Shown here: one piece after another, positions 18,467 to 22,812 of the stretch
Layout: every line of letters starts with the position of its first letter
Numbering within the stretch: the first letter of the stretch is position 1
Origin: a virus
IMG/VR virus record: IMGVR_UViG_3300045413_000228
Span: 1 to 24,982 of that record
Reading direction: 5' to 3' (one strand)
Length of the DNA: 24,982 nt
Translations under genes and position numbers: made by a program
The notes under the pieces: model-generated
The model's database searches: none
What the model was told of the DNA's origin: nothing
What the model saw: the letters and a program-made list of their open reading frames with translations, nothing else

Positions 18467-18546
18467 TGGTAGGTCTGGGGGGAGTCGAACCCTCATAGTT
18501 TCCAATTATGCACATACTGATTAGAAGTCAGCGCCATTACAGACCC
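18467..18546 (-). tRNA. tRNA-Arg(UCU), D-arm almost absent
   Basis: Acceptor GGGTCTG/CAGACCT, anticodon arm GCTGA-CTTCTAA-TCAGT, T-loop TTCGACT, encoded CCA. Only seven nt (TAATGGC) lie between acceptor and anticodon stems, so there is no D-stem. The variable region is expanded and contains the 20-bp block at 18494-18513 shared with tRNA-Arg(CCU). Confidence 0.8.
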
Positions 18547-18552
18547 ATAAAA

Positions 18553-18628
18553 TGGTACTCTTAGAAAGATTTAAACTCTCAACTTTTCGTTCGAAGCGAA
18601 GTATGATTTTCATTTTCACCATAAGAGC
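18553..18628 (-). tRNA. tRNA-Arg(UCG)
   Basis: Acceptor GCTCTTA/TAAGAGT, D-arm GTGA-AAATGAAAA-TCAT, anticodon loop CTTCGAA, T-arm GAGAG-TTTAAAT-CTTTC, CCA encoded. D-loop has GA where GG is usual and the T-loop has UU at 55-56, a compensating change. Confidence 0.85.
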
Positions 18629-18634
18629 ATAAAA

Positions 18635-18710
18635 TGGTCTGAATGACAGGTGCCGCCCCTGCTTGATCTTGGCCCCAAACCAAGCGCCTCACTGTTAGGC
18701 TACATCCAGA
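18635..18710 (-). tRNA. tRNA-Pro(UGG)
   Basis: Acceptor TCTGGAT/ATTCAGA, anticodon arm CTTGG-TTTGGGG-CCAAG, T-arm GCAGG-GGCGGCA-CCTGT, CCA encoded. The T-loop lacks UU at 54-55 (G55, C56 kept) and the D-loop carries AG instead of GG. Confidence 0.88.
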
Positions 18711-18715
18711 TAAAA

Positions 18716-18789
18716 TGGTAGGGTGTACAGGTATCGCGCCTGTTCCGTATGCGTGTAAAGCATATGTCCGTCTTCCGGGCACACACCCT
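18716..18789 (-). tRNA. tRNA-Val(UAC)
   Basis: Acceptor AGGGTGT/ACACCCT, anticodon arm TATGC-TTTACAC-GCATA, T-arm ACAGG-CGCGATA-CCTGT, CCA encoded. AG in the D-loop with G55-C56 in the T-loop. Confidence 0.88.
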
Positions 18790-18790
18790 A

Positions 18791-18885
18791 TGGCGGATCG
18801 AGAAAGAGTTAAACTTTCACCGGGTCTAAAACCGGGCTTGTTTAGCAAACAAGTGCAGCAAAAATTCACTATCTGCCTTCGATCC
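18791..18885 (-). tRNA. tRNA-Ser(GCU)
   Basis: Class II. Acceptor GGATCGA/TCGATCC, D-stem GCAG/CTGC, anticodon arm CTTGT-TTGCTAA-ACAAG, variable arm CCCGG-TTTTAGA-CCCGG region, T-arm GAAAG-TTTAACT-CTTTC, discriminator G, CCA encoded. D-loop GTGAA pairs with UU at 55-56 (GA/UU class). Confidence 0.88.
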
Positions 18886-18914
18886 AAAAAATCCAAAGAT
18901 CAATATAATTAAAA

Positions 18915-19006
18915 TGGCGGACCGGTGTCGGTACTGCCCCGACCTTCGTTCTTCACGAACCTTGTTTTCAAGACAAGTGCAACCATCTTATATCTGCCTA
19001 CCGTCC
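18915..19006 (-). tRNA. tRNA-Ser(UGA)
   Basis: Class II. Anticodon arm CTTGT-CTTGAAA-ACAAG, variable arm GTTCG-TGAA-GAACGAA, T-arm GTCGG-GGCAGTA-CCGAC, discriminator G, CCA encoded. The acceptor has two mismatches (positions 5 and 7). AG in the D-loop with G55-C56. First gene of the array segment served by the promoter at 19019-19046. Confidence 0.85.
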
Positions 19007-19014
19007 AATCTACC

Positions 19015-19057
19015 TATAAATATATCGAAATCTACAAATCTGTCAACAATATTTATA
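19015..19057 (+). promoter_or_regulatory. Plus-strand start region: TATAAATA and TATTTATA-N5-ATG
   Basis: TATAAATA at 19015-19022 equals the T4 late-promoter consensus, 40 nt before the ATG. TATTTATA at 19050-19057 is followed by exactly 5 nt and ATG 19063, as at three minus-strand genes. Either could serve the only plus-strand gene of the window. Confidence 0.4.
19019..19046 (-). promoter_or_regulatory. Sigma70-like promoter for the tRNA block 18467-19006
   Basis: TTGACA at 19041-19046 (minus strand), 16-nt spacer, TATATT at 19019-19024, about 13 nt before tRNA-Ser(UGA). It overlaps a plus-strand TATAAATA (19015-19022) and the leader of the plus-strand gene, so the two directions may exclude each other. 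Confidence 0.65.
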
Positions 19058-19062
19058 TTATC

Positions 19063-20505
19063 ATGTATATAATAAAATTAAAAGAATTATTACTCGAATC
19101 CCAAGCGGAATCAGATGTATCTCAAGAACCCACAGTCATTTCTGAAAAAGGATACCGATATCTAAAAACTCGGGTCGATGAATTAAATAAAAAAGCAGCA
19201 CGTTATGGCGTTCCTCCAATGGAACTTAAAGTTCTTAAAGAAGAATTCGTTAAAACCAAAATATTTGTAAATTTAGCTGGCCGTCCAACAACAGCTAACG
19301 ACCCGAAAGCTGAAGAAAAAGAAATAACTGTAAAAAAATATACCATAACTATAGAAGGTAATTCTCCACGCGTGGAAGGTTATGAGTTTATAGCAAAAAT
19401 TGAGCATACACCCGAAGGAAATATACTTAATTATAATCCCAATGCTTCAGTTAAAAATCTTCCGCCAGAATATAGAACATATTCACAAAAATGCGATGTG
19501 TGCGAAACAAACCGAGAGCGTTCTAATACATTTATTCTAAAATTAGAAAACCTCGATCAAGACCGATTCCCAGACAAAAACGTTGGCGATTTTATAATGG
19601 TTGGGTCCGGCTGCTTAAAAAGATTTCTTCCGGGAATAACCGTTTCAGCATTATTAAACTATGCGGAAATGATAGAGTCAATAAGAAACGATATAAAACG
19701 TTCCGAAACTATGACCGATGATTCTGGGTGGGGAAAAGAATATAGTAATTATGAAAATACATATGATGTACTTAAATGGCTGGCAACAGAATATCTCTAC
19801 ACGGGAAAATACCTTTCCGCTAAAAAAGCACAAGAATTTCAAACATCATCAACTTTACAAGATGCATTAGGCTTGCTATATTACAGTCCGCTTCTTACAA
19901 AAGATATTCCAAAAGAAATAGAAAAACTTCAAACCGATAAAACATTTTCTGATAAAGTAGATGCCTTTGTAAATGAATTTATAGAATGGAGAGATAAAAA
20001 AGATTTTGATGTTGAAATCGGAAAAAATCCAAATTATGCTGATTTCTTTCACAATATGAAAATTATTGCAAAGAAAAAAGATGCTATAGAGAAAAACAAT
20101 CTTGCAAAGTTTGGTGCTCTGTTTCAAATATTCTTACGAGATAAAGGTGAGTTTGAACGCAAAAAAGAATTGGCACAAAAAGCAGCTACAGCAACATACG
20201 TCGGTACCATCGGGCAAAAATTAAAAATACCCGTAACTGTAGAAAAAATTAAAGATTTTGAGACCGTCTATGGTCTGTCTTATTTGTACAAAATGAAAGA
20301 TGATAATGGAAACGTTTTGGTTTGGTTCACCAGTACTTCACCCACAACAGCCTTATCTAGAATAGAACCCGATGCCTTAAAATCCATATATGAAGGTGGA
20401 AAATATGAAATAGAAGGTAAGGTTAAGAAGCACGAACCAAATAAATATACCAGTATTCCGGAGACATCATTAGAACGTGTTAAATTTCTAAAAGTTTTAA
20501 GTTAA
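19063..20505 (+). CDS. Putative nucleic-acid-binding protein with Cys motif and C-terminal OB-like domain, 480 aa
   Basis: I start at ATG 19063 (MYIIKLKELLLESQAES) because an upstream in-frame ATG lies inside tRNA-Ser(UGA). A Cys motif at residues 144-184 (KCDVCETNRERSNTFIL, then VGSGCLKRFL) resembles a module seen in uncharacterised phage and plasmid proteins. Residues about 370-480 (YVGTIGQKLKIPVTVEKIKD, FETVYGLSYLYKMKDDNGNV, then a VKKHEP segment) look like an OB-fold nucleic-acid-binding domain. Middle part helical. No nuclease or helicase motif. It is the only plus-strand gene, sits between two tRNA blocks, and its stop is 2 nt from the 3' end of the converging tRNA-Thr(GGU). Confidence 0.8.
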   Translation: MYIIKLKELLLESQAESDVSQEPTVISEKGYRYLKTRVDELNKKAARYGVPPMELKVLKEEFVKTKIFVNLAGRPTTANDPKAEEKEITVKKYTITIEGNSPRVEGYEFIAKIEHTPEGNILNYNPNASVKNLPPEYRTYSQKCDVCETNRERSNTFILKLENLDQDRFPDKNVGDFIMVGSGCLKRFLPGITVSALLNYAEMIESIRNDIKRSETMTDDSGWGKEYSNYENTYDVLKWLATEYLYTGKYLSAKKAQEFQTSSTLQDALGLLYYSPLLTKDIPKEIEKLQTDKTFSDKVDAFVNEFIEWRDKKDFDVEIGKNPNYADFFHNMKIIAKKKDAIEKNNLAKFGALFQIFLRDKGEFERKKELAQKAATATYVGTIGQKLKIPVTVEKIKDFETVYGLSYLYKMKDDNGNVLVWFTSTSPTTALSRIEPDALKSIYEGGKYEIEGKVKKHEPNKYTSIPETSLERVKFLKVLS

Positions 20506-20507
20506 AC

Positions 20508-20581
20508 TGGAGCCCCATTCCGGAATTGCACCGAAATTTCTTGATTACCAATCAAGTGTAATGCTATTATACGAAAAGGGC
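20508..20581 (-). tRNA. tRNA-Thr(GGU)
   Basis: Anticodon arm CTTGA-TTGGTAA-TCAAG, D-arm GTAT-AATAGCA-TTAC, T-arm TTCGG-TGCAATT-CCGGA, CCA encoded; one acceptor mismatch. AG/GC elbow class. Its 3' end nearly touches the converging plus-strand gene. Confidence 0.88.
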
Positions 20582-20588
20582 ATAAAAA

Positions 20589-20664
20589 TGGAGCCGAAGA
20601 CAGGACTTGCACCTGCAACCATCATATTACAAATATGACGCTCTGCTAATTGAGCTACTTCGGC
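20589..20664 (-). tRNA. tRNA-Thr(UGU)
   Basis: Acceptor GCCGAAG/CTTCGGC, D-arm GCTC-AATTAGCA-GAGC, anticodon arm TCATA-TTTGTAA-TATGA, T-arm GCAGG-TGCAAGT-CCTGT, CCA encoded. All stems complete; D-loop AG with T-loop G55-C56. Confidence 0.95.
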
Positions 20665-20668
20665 AAAA

Positions 20669-20742
20669 TGGAGCCATGTTCTGGTAATTCTCCAGATTCT
20701 CTTACTTACGAGGCAAGCGTTATAATTTTCTACTAACATGGC
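20669..20742 (-). tRNA. tRNA-Thr(CGU)
   Basis: Acceptor GCCATGT/ACATGGC, anticodon arm CTTGC-CTCGTAA-GTAAG, T-arm TCTGG-AGAATTA-CCAGA, CCA encoded. D-loop AAAATTA aligns with AATAGCA of tRNA-Thr(GGU), giving AU at 18-19, and the T-loop has GA at 55-56: a double compensating change. Confidence 0.85.
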
Positions 20743-20744
20743 AA

Positions 20745-20818
20745 TGGCTGTTGCTACAAGAATTGCACTTGTTCCTTTTCTTTCAGAGAGAATCATGCGA
20801 CTATTACACCAAACAACA
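20745..20818 (-). tRNA. tRNA-Gln(CUG)
   Basis: Acceptor TGTTGTT/AGCAACA, anticodon loop CTCTGAA (first anticodon pair A-A), T-arm ACAAG-TGCAATT-CTTGT, CCA encoded. AG/GC elbow class. Confidence 0.82.
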
Positions 20819-20823
20819 ATAAA

Positions 20824-20897
20824 TGGCTGGGGTTGATGGTATTGCGCCACCTTCTTTTGGTTCAAAGCCAACTATAATACTTTTATACTAAACCCCA
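20824..20897 (-). tRNA. tRNA-Gln(UUG)
   Basis: Acceptor TGGGGTT/AACCCCA, anticodon loop CTTTGAA, T-arm GGTGG-CGCAATA-CCATC, CCA encoded. D-loop AAAAGTA (AG) with G55-C56. Begins right after the trailer of the permuted tRNA. Confidence 0.88.
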
Positions 20898-20909
20898 TCT
20901 AAAAAAGTG

Positions 20910-21070
20910 AGGATTTCACGAAGCGTTCCAATACTCGTTTTCATGTAAATATTCTTACCAGTTAAATTACCGGCCCATTTTGTCGGGCCGGGGTGGATTC
21001 GAACCACCGTTTTTTACACAATCCCTTTTTTGTCTATCTCTTATTAATATTACGAAGTAAAGGATTTCAC
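20910..21070. repeat. 10-bp direct repeats flanking the permuted tRNA
   Basis: aggatttcac occurs at 20910-20919 and 21061-21070 (plus strand), one copy after the 5' half and one before the 3' half. This fits tandem duplication of an intron-containing tRNA followed by loss of the outer halves. The leader 21018-21107 has no other gene. Confidence 0.6.
20938..21017 (-). tRNA. Circularly permuted tRNA candidate (3' half before 5' half)
   Basis: Read on the minus strand: anticodon 3' strand GTAAA (21013-21017), variable AAAC, T-arm GGTGG-TTCGAAT-CCACC, acceptor 3' strand CCGGCCC (20985-20991), an 8-nt linker GACAAAAT, then acceptor 5' strand GGGCCGG (20970-20976), TA, D-arm ATTT-AACTGGTAA-GAAT, A26, and anticodon 5' strand TTTAC followed by ATGAAAA. 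All four stems pair perfectly once the halves are swapped (7+4+5+5 bp) and the loops are canonical (GG with TTC). If the whole loop is on the 5' half the anticodon is GAA (Phe); a split loop could give GAU (Ile). No CCA is encoded. Flanks share a 10-bp direct repeat. Either a permuted gene or the relic of a tandem duplication. Confidence 0.65.
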
Positions 21071-21107
21071 AATTTTATTCGTCAATAAAAAAGGTTCCTA
21101 ATATGCA

Positions 21108-21180
21108 TATTTTAAACAAGAATCGAACTTGTATTTCCGACTTTGGTGTTCGGCGTCCTATCCAATTAGACGATTAATTT
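21108..21180 (-). tRNA. tRNA-Trp-like(CCA), structurally aberrant
   Basis: D-arm CGTC-TAATTGGATAG-GACG and T-arm ACAAG-TTCGATT-CTTGT are complete. The anticodon arm CCGAA-CACCAAA-GTCGG has A at position 33 instead of U and a poor last pair. The acceptor AAATTAA/TTAAAAT is all A-T with two A-A mismatches, but pairing resumes outside it (TGCATA/TATGCA). No CCA encoded. Could be decayed or a special tRNA. Confidence 0.5.
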
Positions 21181-21250
21181 ATGCAACTATAGTCTATCTT
21201 TACAACGTCATTTATTGGCGTTTCCGGTTCTCCAATAAAAATTCAAAAAA
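21181..21250 (-). other. Short stem-loop between tRNA-like genes
   Basis: TTATTGG at 21212-21218 and CCAATAA at 21232-21238 form a 7-bp inverted repeat around CGTTTCCGGTTCT. No T-run follows on either strand. Nothing else recognised in this spacer. Confidence 0.35.
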
Positions 21251-21340
21251 TGGCTGGTGGGGCTGGGGACGATCCAGCATATACCTTCTGAGGGCCTCAA
21301 GGTTAACAGCCTTGGGATCTACCAATTGATCTACCCACCA
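21251..21340 (-). tRNA. tRNA-Asn(GUU) with unusually long variable region
   Basis: Acceptor TGGTGGG/CCCACCA, D-arm GATC-AATTGGTA-GATC, anticodon arm CAAGG-CTGTTAA-CCTTG, T-arm GCTGG-ATCGTCC-CCAGC, discriminator G, CCA encoded. The variable region is 19 nt (with a CCT-CAGA-AGG mini-hairpin), whereas tRNA-Asn is normally class I. GG/UC elbow. Confidence 0.88.
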
Positions 21341-21356
21341 ATTAAAAAAATAAAAA

Positions 21357-21432
21357 TGGTGGAGCTATCCGGAATCGCACCGGAAACCTTTGCATTGCAA
21401 GTGCAACGCTCTACTAATTGAGCTATAACCCC
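21357..21432 (-). tRNA. tRNA-Ala(UGC)
   Basis: Acceptor GGGGTTA/TAGCTCC, D-arm GCTC-AATTAGTA-GAGC, anticodon arm TTGCA-CTTGCAA-TGCAA, T-arm TCCGG-TGCGATT-CCGGA, CCA encoded. The usual Ala-specifying G3-U70 wobble is present. AG/GC elbow class. Confidence 0.95.
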
Positions 21433-21442
21433 ATATAAAAAA

Positions 21443-21519
21443 TGGTGCAATCGGTGAGGTATGATCTCACAACCTTGATGTTAAAAGCATCTTGCTCTAC
21501 CAAATTGAGCTACGATTGC
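21443..21519 (-). tRNA. tRNA-Lys(UUU)
   Basis: Acceptor GCAATCG/CGATTGC, D-arm GCTC-AATTTGGTA-GAGC, anticodon loop CTTTTAA, T-arm GTGAG-ATCATAC-CTCAC, CCA encoded. Keeps GG with UC at the elbow although T54 is A. Confidence 0.93.
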
Positions 21520-21520
21520 T

Positions 21521-21594
21521 TGGAGCATCATGTGGGAATTGCACCCACTCCTCAAAATTGGCAATTTTGAATTCTACTATTAAACTAATGATGC
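21521..21594 (-). tRNA. tRNA-Gly(GCC)
   Basis: Acceptor GCATCAT/ATGATGC, anticodon arm CAAAA-TTGCCAA-TTTTG, T-arm GTGGG-TGCAATT-CCCAC, CCA encoded. AG/GC elbow class. Confidence 0.93.
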
Positions 21595-21599
21595 AAATT

Positions 21600-21674
21600 T
21601 GGAGCGCTGTGAGTTCCTTGCAAACTCATCCCAAGATTGGAAATCTCGAATTTTACTACTTAAACTAACAGCGC
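21600..21674 (-). tRNA. tRNA-Gly(UCC)
   Basis: Acceptor GCGCTGT/ACAGCGC, anticodon arm CGAGA-TTTCCAA-TCTTG, T-arm GAGTT-TGCAAGG-AACTC, CCA encoded. AG/GC elbow class; similar overall to the preceding tRNA-Gly, suggesting duplication. Confidence 0.93.
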
Positions 21675-21677
21675 AAA

Positions 21678-21764
21678 TGGTCCCACATGTAGGTATTGCA
21701 CCTACCCATTCAACAGAAGCTTGTTTTACAGACAAGCTCGTGTCTTTAACGATTTAATGTGGGA
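21678..21764 (-). tRNA. tRNA-Tyr(GUA)
   Basis: Acceptor TCCCACA/TGTGGGA, anticodon arm CTTGT-CTGTAAA-ACAAG, long variable arm as expected for bacterial tRNA-Tyr, T-arm GTAGG-TGCAATA-CCTAC, CCA encoded. AG/GC elbow class. Confidence 0.92.
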
Positions 21765-21770
21765 ATAAAG

Positions 21771-21848
21771 TGGCCCGAATTATTGGTTACGCTCCAATCT
21801 TTTCATGCGTCTTCAGCGCACAGCTTTCACTAGATTAGCTTAATCCGG
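21771..21848 (-). tRNA. tRNA-Phe(GAA)
   Basis: Acceptor CCGGATT/AATTCGG, D-arm GCT-AATCTAGTGAA-AGC, anticodon arm GTGCG-CTGAAGA-CGCAT, T-arm ATTGG-AGCGTAA-CCAAT, CCA encoded. C1-G72 and discriminator G are unusual for tRNA-Phe (normally discriminator A). AG/GC elbow class. Confidence 0.82.
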
Positions 21849-21849
21849 A

Positions 21850-21926
21850 TGGTCAGCGGGAAGGGACTCGCACCCTTACAGGTTTCTTCACAGGAAACGA
21901 TGCTAGCTAATTACATCACCACGCTG
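21850..21926 (-). tRNA. tRNA-His(GUG)
   Basis: Anticodon arm GTTTC-CTGTGAA-GAAAC, T-arm AAGGG-TGCGAGT-CCCTT, CCA encoded. Position -1 is A and the discriminator is A, so the G-1:C73 pair used by bacterial histidyl-tRNA synthetase is not encoded. AG/GC elbow class. Confidence 0.88.
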
Positions 21927-21940
21927 TTTATTATAAAAAG

Positions 21941-22043
21941 TGGCGGTCCATATGAGACTCGCACCAACGCCATATATAAAATCATCCATAATAATATTCG
22001 CCAATTGGGTTCTGAATTATCACAGTCATAACACCCAATGACC
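21941..22043 (-). tRNA. Unresolved tRNA-like gene, only the 3' part clear
   Basis: 3' end has encoded CCA, acceptor ATGGACC, and a T-loop TGCGAGT identical to that of tRNA-His with a 4/5-paired T-stem. The best 5' partner GGTCATT (22037-22043) pairs at 5 of 7 positions. The roughly 60 nt between do not fold into a normal D and anticodon arm; ATTGGGT/ACCCAAT forms a 7-bp stem instead. Could be a pseudogene, an interrupted tRNA, or a non-canonical class. Confidence 0.4.
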
Positions 22044-22112
22044 GATTTGGTGTTTTTTCCCTAACCTAATTCCGTTTTGGTGGAACACCACAGAGTACTA
22101 ATCCATATAAAC
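22044..22112. other. Short spacer with 7-bp inverted repeat
   Basis: TGGTGTT at 22048-22054 and AACACCA at 22084-22090 face each other across 29 nt. It resembles an acceptor stem, but no T-arm or anticodon arm can be found between. No gene seen. Confidence 0.3.
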
Positions 22113-22145
22113 AAAAAACCCGCTGTCCTCCTTAGAATCAGCGGG
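22113..22145 (-). terminator. Intrinsic terminator with AAGGAGG in its loop
   Basis: Minus-strand CCCGCTG / CAGCGGG (7 bp) with a 13-nt loop containing AAGGAGG, followed by TTTTTTG. It closes the short unit that begins at the promoter 22251-22278. The Shine-Dalgarno-like loop could bind 16S rRNA if exposed. Confidence 0.8.
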
Positions 22146-22167
22146 CGAAAAGCTTTTTATAGAGTAT

Positions 22168-22239
22168 TTACATACGTCCGCTGCTCCTTCTAGCAGTAAT
22201 TCTATTATACTGCTTAAACCAATGTTGTTTATCTTTCAT
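22168..22239 (-). CDS. Very small basic peptide, 23 aa
   Basis: MKDKQHWFKQYNRITARRSS ends GRM then TAA. Basic and Arg-rich at its end. A strong promoter (22251-22278) would start transcription about 5 nt before the ATG, and a terminator follows 23 nt after the stop, so it fills a dedicated short transcript. Whether the peptide or the RNA is functional is open; no ribosome-binding site is present. Confidence 0.4.
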   Translation of the reverse strand: MKDKQHWFKQYNRITARRSSGRM

Positions 22240-22250
22240 TCTATGATATA

Positions 22251-22278
22251 AGTATATTCAAACTCCAAAAAATGTCAA
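22251..22278 (-). promoter_or_regulatory. Sigma70-like promoter of the short unit
   Basis: TTGACA at 22273-22278 (minus strand), 16-nt spacer, TATACT at 22251-22256. Between tRNA-Cys and the small peptide gene. Confidence 0.65.
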
Positions 22279-22296
22279 GCCTTTTATAATTATTTT

Positions 22297-22371
22297 TGGA
22301 GGCAAATGTGGGAATCGAACCCACGTCTCAAGTTTTGCAAACGAGCATATGACCCACTCTACCAATTTGCC
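22297..22371 (-). tRNA. tRNA-Cys(GCA), overlapping a protein gene
   Basis: Acceptor GGCAAAT/ATTTGCC, anticodon loop TTGCAAA (anticodon stem only partly paired), T-arm GTGGG-TTCGATT-CCCAC, CCA encoded. GG/UC elbow. The last 14 codons of the zinc-ribbon gene lie inside this tRNA on the same strand. Confidence 0.82.
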
Positions 22372-22636
22372 CGTCTTCCATACTATAAATATATAAATAC
22401 CTTTTATATTTCCGATGTAGCAGTACTAGATATCCCCATTTTTTTTTACTAATAACTAAAGAATTTCCACAAGTACATTTTAATCTTACTTTTAATCCAT
22501 AATCATGTGACACGAATTTTCTCTCACTACATACCTCACAAGCAAACCAATCCTTTTCAGTAGAAACCGTTGCCCAATCGCATCTTGTATTTAAAGCTTT
22601 TCTGTAAGTTGCTCTGTTTTTTTGATGAATACTCAT
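22328..22636 (-). CDS. Small zinc-ribbon-like protein, about 102 aa
   Basis: I start at ATG 22636 (MSIHQKNRATYRKALNTRCD); the longer frame would begin next to the tRNA upstream. Four Cys as two CxC/CxxC pairs: FACEVCSERKFVSHDYGL and LKCTCGNSLVI, spaced like a zinc ribbon, then a basic segment LHRKYKRYLYIYS. Probably nucleic-acid binding. The frame ends with TGA inside tRNA-Cys, so processing of that tRNA would cut the mRNA inside the coding region. Confidence 0.55.
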   Translation of the reverse strand: MSIHQKNRATYRKALNTRCDWATVSTEKDWFACEVCSERKFVSHDYGLKVRLKCTCGNSLVISKKKWGYLVLLHRKYKRYLYIYSMEDGQIGRVGHMLVCKT

Positions 22637-22653
22637 ATCGTCTATAATAAAAG

Positions 22654-22733
22654 TGGCGGTCAAGAAGAGATTCGAACTCTCATAGTTTCCAATTATGCAC
22701 TTTCTGCTTAGGACGCAGAGCCATTACTTGACC
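22654..22733 (-). tRNA. tRNA-Arg(CCU), D-arm almost absent
   Basis: Acceptor GGTCAAG/CTTGACC, linker TAATGGC instead of a D-arm, anticodon arm TCTGC-GTCCTAA-GCAGA, expanded variable region with the 20-bp block at 22681-22700 identical to that of tRNA-Arg(UCU), T-arm GAGAG-TTCGAAT-CTCTT, discriminator G, CCA encoded. Confidence 0.82.
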
Positions 22734-22738
22734 AAACT

Positions 22739-22812
22739 TGGTAGCAATTACAAGACTTGCACTTGTATTTTCGGCGTATGAAACCGCTGTTCTTCTATTG
22801 AACTAAACTGCC
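22739..22812 (-). tRNA. tRNA-Met(CAU), or tRNA-Ile(CAU)
   Basis: Acceptor GGCAGTT/AATTGCT, D-arm GTTC-AATAGAA-GAAC, anticodon loop TTCATAC, T-arm ACAAG-TGCAAGT-CTTGT, CCA encoded. Not an initiator type (G1-U72 rather than an unpaired C1). Lysidine-type Ile is possible. AG/GC elbow class. Confidence 0.85.

Follow-up and report, generated by a model that had tools for sequence, protein, structure and literature searches.

A matched alternative to the canonical tRNA elbow in the tRNA cluster of a T4-like phage

The contact between the D- and T-loops of tRNA, in which G18 meets pseudouridine 55 (Psi55) and G19 pairs with C56, is treated as nearly universal, and a set of tRNAs that departs from it raises the question of whether their elbow has been lost or rebuilt. 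Such a set lies on the minus strand at 18467-22812 of IMG/VR record IMGVR_UViG_3300045413_000228, a 24,982-base fragment of a T4-like phage that we analysed as a whole (the window) and that holds about 26 tRNAs. An earlier note, made from the sequence alone, had proposed that positions 18-19 and 55-56 change together in every one of them. The matched changes are confirmed by a letter-blind scan and by refolding, but they do not extend to every tRNA: 17 of about 26 lack the combination of G18 G19 with U55 C56. A18 G19 faces G55 C56 in 14 tRNAs, A18 U19 faces G55 A56 in one and G18 A19 faces U55 U56 in two, and the foldable remainder is canonical at 18, 19, 55 and 56. The note's assignment of tRNAs to four matched combinations is correct by scan, hand refolds and sequence, as is its count of 15 tRNAs with G55, the 14 above plus tRNA-Thr(CGU). 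We give a probability of roughly 55% to the reading that these phage tRNAs carry an alternative working elbow, favoured outside the host's normal supply chain.

Standard tools detect the cluster incompletely: ARAGORN found 11 of the roughly 26 cluster tRNAs, and Rfam (RF00005) at its gathering score found 15-18 across the whole window. Our letter-blind cloverleaf scan scores stem pairing, U33 and CCA, with minor credit for U8/A14, and ignores positions 18, 19 and 54-60. At a score of at least 36 it returned 16 tRNAs from the real window and none from eight shuffled copies. Hand refolding covered the tRNAs for Tyr, His and Cys, and tRNA-Ser(GCU) was read from the sequence. The 7-bp acceptor stem, the D, anticodon and T arms, U33 and CCA were found by scan, refolds and Rfam. 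Low scores or misses by standard finders are what pseudogenes or misaligned stretches would also give, a reading that we consider close to negligible: the stems are paired, CCA is encoded, the scan is empty on shuffled sequence, the same rule occurs in cultured isolates (Verrucomicrobium sp. BvORR034, Geminisphaera colitermitum TAV2 and Pseudoalteromonas phage J2-1), and for the bulk of the tRNAs the pseudogene reading is refuted by the covariation counts that follow.

The elbow obeys a pairing rule. As relatives of the window we took contigs carrying a relative of its baseplate wedge protein, chosen without regard to the elbow and then scanned letter-blind, and we confined the counts at 18-55 and 19-56 to D-loops of 7 nt, in which positions 18 and 19 can be assigned without ambiguity. 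In the window and its relatives (n=52) position 18-55 is G-U in 29 tRNAs and A-G in 23, with no other pair, so that all 52 are matched, against a mean of 26.4 and a maximum of 40 when partners were shuffled 2000 times. Position 19-56 is G-C in 49 and A-U, C-G and U-A in one each; it is Watson-Crick in 52/52, against a shuffled maximum of 50/52. A coupled change at 54-58 forms a third site, overlooked in the earlier note: in the window and relatives (n=135) it is U-A in 113 tRNAs, A-U in 10, G-G in eight and C-A in four, matched in 135/135 against a maximum of 109/135 over 300 shuffles, figures which, like those above, are not strict probabilities as the shuffles ignore common descent, although the same rule is seen across many other contigs. 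Base 60 tracks this pair, being A60 with A-U and G-G and a pyrimidine with U-A. Furthermore, 54 is not U in 17/38 of the G55 tRNAs of the window and relatives, as opposed to 5/97 of the U55 tRNAs.

In other IMG/VR contigs, once pattern-selected tRNAs are removed, the pairing rule is the same with few exceptions. A pattern scan aimed at 19-56 was noisy, with 23/27 matches unverified as tRNAs, 13 of them AG matches of one repeated-looking sequence; the verified tRNAs were Watson-Crick in 4/4. The covariation test was positive at both 18-55 and 19-56 and strongly supports the coordinated replacement, with tertiary contacts preserved, that the earlier note had put forward. Because the letters change together, the interlocked fold of the D- and T-loops and the stacked 19-56 face have very probably been kept.

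Within the window, where all of the tRNAs lie on the minus strand, the A18 G19 / G55 C56 elbow was assigned by ARAGORN and the letter-blind scan in Thr(GGU) (20508..20581), Thr(UGU) (20589..20664), Ala(UGC) (21357..21432), Gly(GCC) (21521..21594), Gly(UCC) (21600..21674) and Met(CAU) (22739..22812). The scan alone assigned it in Pro(UGG) (18635..18709) and Ser(UGA) (18919..19006), both with G-G at 54-58, in Val(UAC) (18716..18789) and Gln(UUG) (20824..20897), both with C-A, in Gln(CUG) (20745..20818), and in Phe(GAA) (21771..21848), which has A-U. Tyr(GUA) (21679..21763) joins this class by hand refold, and His(GUG) (21850..21926) by ARAGORN and hand refold. The single A18 U19 / G55 A56 elbow is that of Thr(CGU) (20669..20742; letter-blind scan), with A-U at 54-58. 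G18 A19 / U55 U56 occurs in Arg(UCG) (18553..18628; ARAGORN and letter-blind scan) and Ser(GCU) (18794..18885; a weak Rfam match and sequence). Among the tRNAs that the earlier note listed as GG/UC, Asn(GUU) (21251..21340) and Lys(UUU) (21443..21519), both with A-U at 54-58, were corroborated by ARAGORN and the letter-blind scan, Cys(GCA) (22297..22371) by ARAGORN and hand refold, and Arg(UCU) (18467..18546) and Arg(CCU) (22654..22733) by Rfam and sequence. The latter two are without a D arm and share the same long variable arm, GCATAATTGGAAACTATG. The rest of that list, two Leu tRNAs, a Trp-like tRNA and a permuted tRNA, was read as canonical only by eye.

Comparison of individual tRNAs indicates how these elbows may have arisen. 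The window tRNA-Gln(UUG) and a canonical tRNA-Gln(CUG) from a relative (G002) are 88% identical outside the elbow and have identical D and T stems, and the differences between their D-loops are matched by those between their T-loops. Similarly, the window tRNA-Arg(UCG), with its GA/UU elbow, has an AG/GC counterpart that is 80% identical outside the elbow, and the nearest neighbour of a phage G55 tRNA is often a canonical tRNA for the same amino acid. These neighbours and the Gln and Arg pairs suggest that elbows switched more than once and do not descend from a single odd family, and point to both loops switching together, time and again, within isoacceptor lineages. A FastTree of masked tRNAs placed 60 elbow changes on 331 tips, a bare count from which no conclusion is drawn.

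Compensatory neutral drift, the main rival to an advantage, would account for such switches through weak selection on phage tRNAs, a second change restoring the pair with no benefit needed. The rare intermediates that drift would pass through do exist: an A18 plus U55 pattern gave 61 IMG/VR matches, seven of them listed as confirmed tRNAs and most others unconfirmed, and a G18 plus G55 pattern occurs in two IMG/VR contigs. Phage tRNAs are also AT-rich and diverse, and a single phage can carry several elbow states. However, nearly all changed tRNAs in the window and its relatives converge on one 18-55 state, A-G; the changes at 55 and 54-58 come together; and the tRNA arrays of Verrucomicrobia described below are rewritten almost throughout, whereas the housekeeping tRNAs sampled alongside them include no rewritten tRNA. 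We regard drift as an explanation to be taken seriously but rather unlikely.

The rewritten elbow is not confined to this phage. A long, very specific AG/GC pattern returned no matches, and shorter patterns were then used; an AG/GC pattern that required CCA and a 7-nt D-loop matched at least 119 IMG/VR contigs, as opposed to two for G18 with G55. Among named phages, Pseudoalteromonas phage J2-1 has such an elbow in a tRNA-Cys. In GTDB genomes the AG/GC pattern matches 72 loci, which include arrays of 4-22 tRNAs in Verrucomicrobia as well as loci in Nostocales, candidate-phyla bacteria, SAR11 and others. Positions 18-19 and 55-56 are canonical in the T4 tRNAs and in those parts of phages Atuin, BrutonGaster and Weasels2 that were read, with no AG/GC elbow among them. 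The earlier note was aware of no phage-wide, covarying replacement. No description of a natural A18-G55 elbow was found in the searchable literature, subscription papers, including those on suppressor tRNA loop selections, lying outside that search, and the parts of two reviews reached by term searches show no A18-G55 form (PMC7912444, PMC4810234); the occurrences in Verrucomicrobia arrays, SAR11, candidate phyla and Nostocales mean, however, that the elbow is not specific to phages.

A scan of IMG/VR that was blind to base 18 and required 55 not to be U gave 92 verified tRNAs, 50 with G18-C55, 38 with A18-G55 and four others, so that G18 with C55 appears as a second, equally common class without U55. 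In addition, four Nostocales loci (L304, L327, L330 and L339) hold a conserved tRNA-like gene with a TACATAC acceptor, an AG/GC elbow and varying anticodons (GAA, CTA, AGT). In 3/4 loci another tRNA-like gene accompanies it, and related sequence is found on Nostoc plasmids.

There is strong indirect evidence that A18-G55 tRNAs function in translation. The window tRNAs retain the identity elements read by aminoacyl-tRNA synthetases: G3-U70 in Ala, the U1-A72 pair and G73 in Gln(CUG), U73 in Gly and Cys, and C1-G72 with A73 in Pro. The tRNA-Phe is atypical in having G73. In a SAR11 metagenome-assembled genome (G047), the sole Phe(GAA), His(GTG) and Val(GAC) tRNAs among the 30 recovered are A18-G55, with the proviso that such an assembly may miss genes, and in the stretch read of a second alphaproteobacterial assembly (L323) the same Phe and His pair is A18-G55. 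The alternative would be a use away from the ribosome, as in staphylococcal peptidoglycan tRNA-Gly, in which the contacts are lost in one isoacceptor barred from translation. The window tRNAs resemble it in departing from GG and T-Psi-C, a loss that is the published hallmark of those tRNAs. Here, though, many isoacceptors rather than Gly alone are changed, their identity features are retained and the contacts are rebuilt as matched pairs, not lost; with the SAR11 Phe and His tRNAs also in view, exclusion from translation seems very improbable.

In two genomes the bacterial arrays set the rewritten elbow apart from the sampled housekeeping tRNAs. In Verrucomicrobium sp. BvORR034 and a Verrucomicrobia metagenome-assembled genome (G033), all 35 sampled housekeeping tRNAs are GG/UC and the array tRNAs almost all have G55; in the main array of TAV2, G55 is present in 24/24. 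This bears on the idea in the earlier note that the phage tRNAs match an altered host; in such a case the hosts would themselves use A18-G55 elbows in their housekeeping tRNAs, with enzymes to suit. In those two genomes, and with the point confined to them, the sampled housekeeping tRNAs accompanying full arrays are canonical, and host matching is not supported there. Single-copy A18-G55 tRNAs in some bacteria, such as the SAR11 assembly, are what host matching predicts, and a G55-type T-arm match is found in 17/118 genomes of that assembly's family. Nevertheless, outside arrays no genome examined exceeds a few A18-G55 tRNAs, and related phages mix both elbow types, which together make host matching improbable.

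The gene for RtcB (PF01139), a ligase that repairs tRNA, lies 494-4536 bp from 14 Verrucomicrobia arrays, which are spread over 13 genomes. The first round found this linkage in G033, G042 (two arrays), G037, G039, G041, G044 and G035; in the follow-up, RtcB was 1.2-4.5 kb from the cluster in 6/6 further genomes; these had been selected on clustered T-arm matches across the phylum, ahead of any search for RtcB. The neighbours of the G033 array are RtcB and a TROVE/Ro60 protein, and those of the TAV2 array are RtcB, a small unknown protein and a sigma-70-like protein. Three Verrucomicrobia loci (L463, L464 and L465) show RtcB, a TROVE/Ro60 protein or a sigma-70-like protein beside a near-complete tRNA array, and TAV2 has two copies of this layout. 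In Arthrobacter phage Atuin (L507), a Ro-like RNA-binding protein is annotated within the tRNA cluster.

Under the reading of an alternative working elbow, A18-G55 and a Watson-Crick 19-56 pair would replace G18-Psi55 and G19-C56, often with a replaced 54-58 pair and A60, and A18-G55 would be a near-isosteric stand-in for G18-Psi55. Loops, positions and partners are those of the canonical elbow (G18-Psi55, G19-C56, U54-A58), and 19-56 is Watson-Crick in both; by contrast, 18-55 here is A-G, 19-56 may also be A-U, U-A or C-G, 54-58 may also be A-U, G-G or C-A, and the target bases of TruB and TrmH are missing. The rewritten tRNAs would be working translation tRNAs, and the switch would be favoured in phage tRNAs and in RNA-repair-linked arrays, outside the host's normal supply chain, because bases read by elbow-reading factors disappear: U55 (TruB), G18 (TrmH), and often U54 (TrmA). 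Sites touched by defence nucleases that damage tRNA may be lost as well. Judging from their known targets, TruB and TrmH should be unable to act without U55 and G18. The outcome would be a tRNA set that no longer depends on those modifications or that withstands damage, and the most probable advantage, if there is one, would be escape from enzymes that read the elbow or from nucleases that damage tRNA. The loss of U54 in G55 tRNAs supports this, as does the AriB nuclease of the PARIS defence system, which contacts the D-loop; a phage-type D-loop change weakens that contact, and T5 tRNAs differ there (PMC12409363). Such escape is plausible, with indirect support from the AriB contact and the RtcB linkage of the bacterial arrays.

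Several observations weigh against this reading. The mixture of elbows in the window means that some of its tRNAs can do without the change. In SAR11, A18-G55 is found in a few ordinary chromosomal tRNAs, for which a defence role is not obvious. In several of the 23 first-round array genomes, G032, G036 and G043 among them, the contig with the array carries no RtcB, and some further contigs are too short to reveal linkage. RtcB was also considered as a partner in phages and rejected: it is carried by 2/29 phage records with an A18-G55 elbow, records that may be fragments, and none was seen among the open reading frames of the 24,982-base window.

Known systems offer partial parallels. The closest among phages are tRNAs that escape anticodon nucleases (PMC10264068) and the T5 tRNAs that act against PARIS (PMC12409363), which are likewise altered in ways that may spare them from host defence. 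They carry mainly anticodon-loop changes, with D-loop position 16 for AriB, unlike the changes at 18, 19 and 54-58 seen here. In Anabaena, the repressor TrcR controls both rtcB and a 26-tRNA operon, and both react to translational stress (PMC10272220). This trn operon of strain PCC 7120 is likewise a many-tRNA array, co-repressed with rtcB and stress-induced, a likeness in layout and regulation; in Verrucomicrobia, by contrast, the rtcB linkage is physical and the elbows are rewritten. It is tempting, if only tentatively, to extend the reading: A18-G55 may be a second, interchangeable elbow class, phages and RNA-repair loci may keep reserve tRNAs of this kind, and RtcB with the array may form one stress-response system in Verrucomicrobia. 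A reserve set of this sort would translate while host tRNAs are damaged or modification is limiting. Functional suppressor tRNAs selected by the Steinberg group from randomised D- and T-loop libraries reportedly include unusual 54-58 pairs such as G-G; these were products of laboratory selection, whereas the elbows described here are natural, widespread and present in large tRNA sets.

The surroundings of the cluster are those of a T4-like phage, with a baseplate wedge (gp6-like) protein, PhoH and a small heat-shock protein named from their translations; tblastn with the baseplate protein matched Microcystis phage Mel-JY01 (43%), a 484-kb uncultured phage and Flavobacterium immuto phages. A search for relatives of the protein encoded within the cluster (19063-20505) found none. 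At 20915-21075 (minus strand), a T arm and 3' acceptor strand (CCGGCCC) are followed by a short linker and then by GGGCCGG and a D arm, which looks like a circularly permuted tRNA gene; the repeat GTGAAATCCT flanks it. At 21945-22095 (minus strand), the T-arm-like GGUGCGAGUC adjoins GGACC, and a full cloverleaf was not found there; the element is possibly an interrupted tRNA.

The alternative elbow accounts for the undercounting of phage tRNAs by standard finders, and tRNA counts in public annotation of such phages are probably low. More broadly, a natural alternative elbow makes the role of the conserved letters and of Psi55, in the fold as against recognition, open to test, and raises the possibility of a reserve tRNA system linked to RNA repair and of a new route by which phage tRNAs may escape defence.

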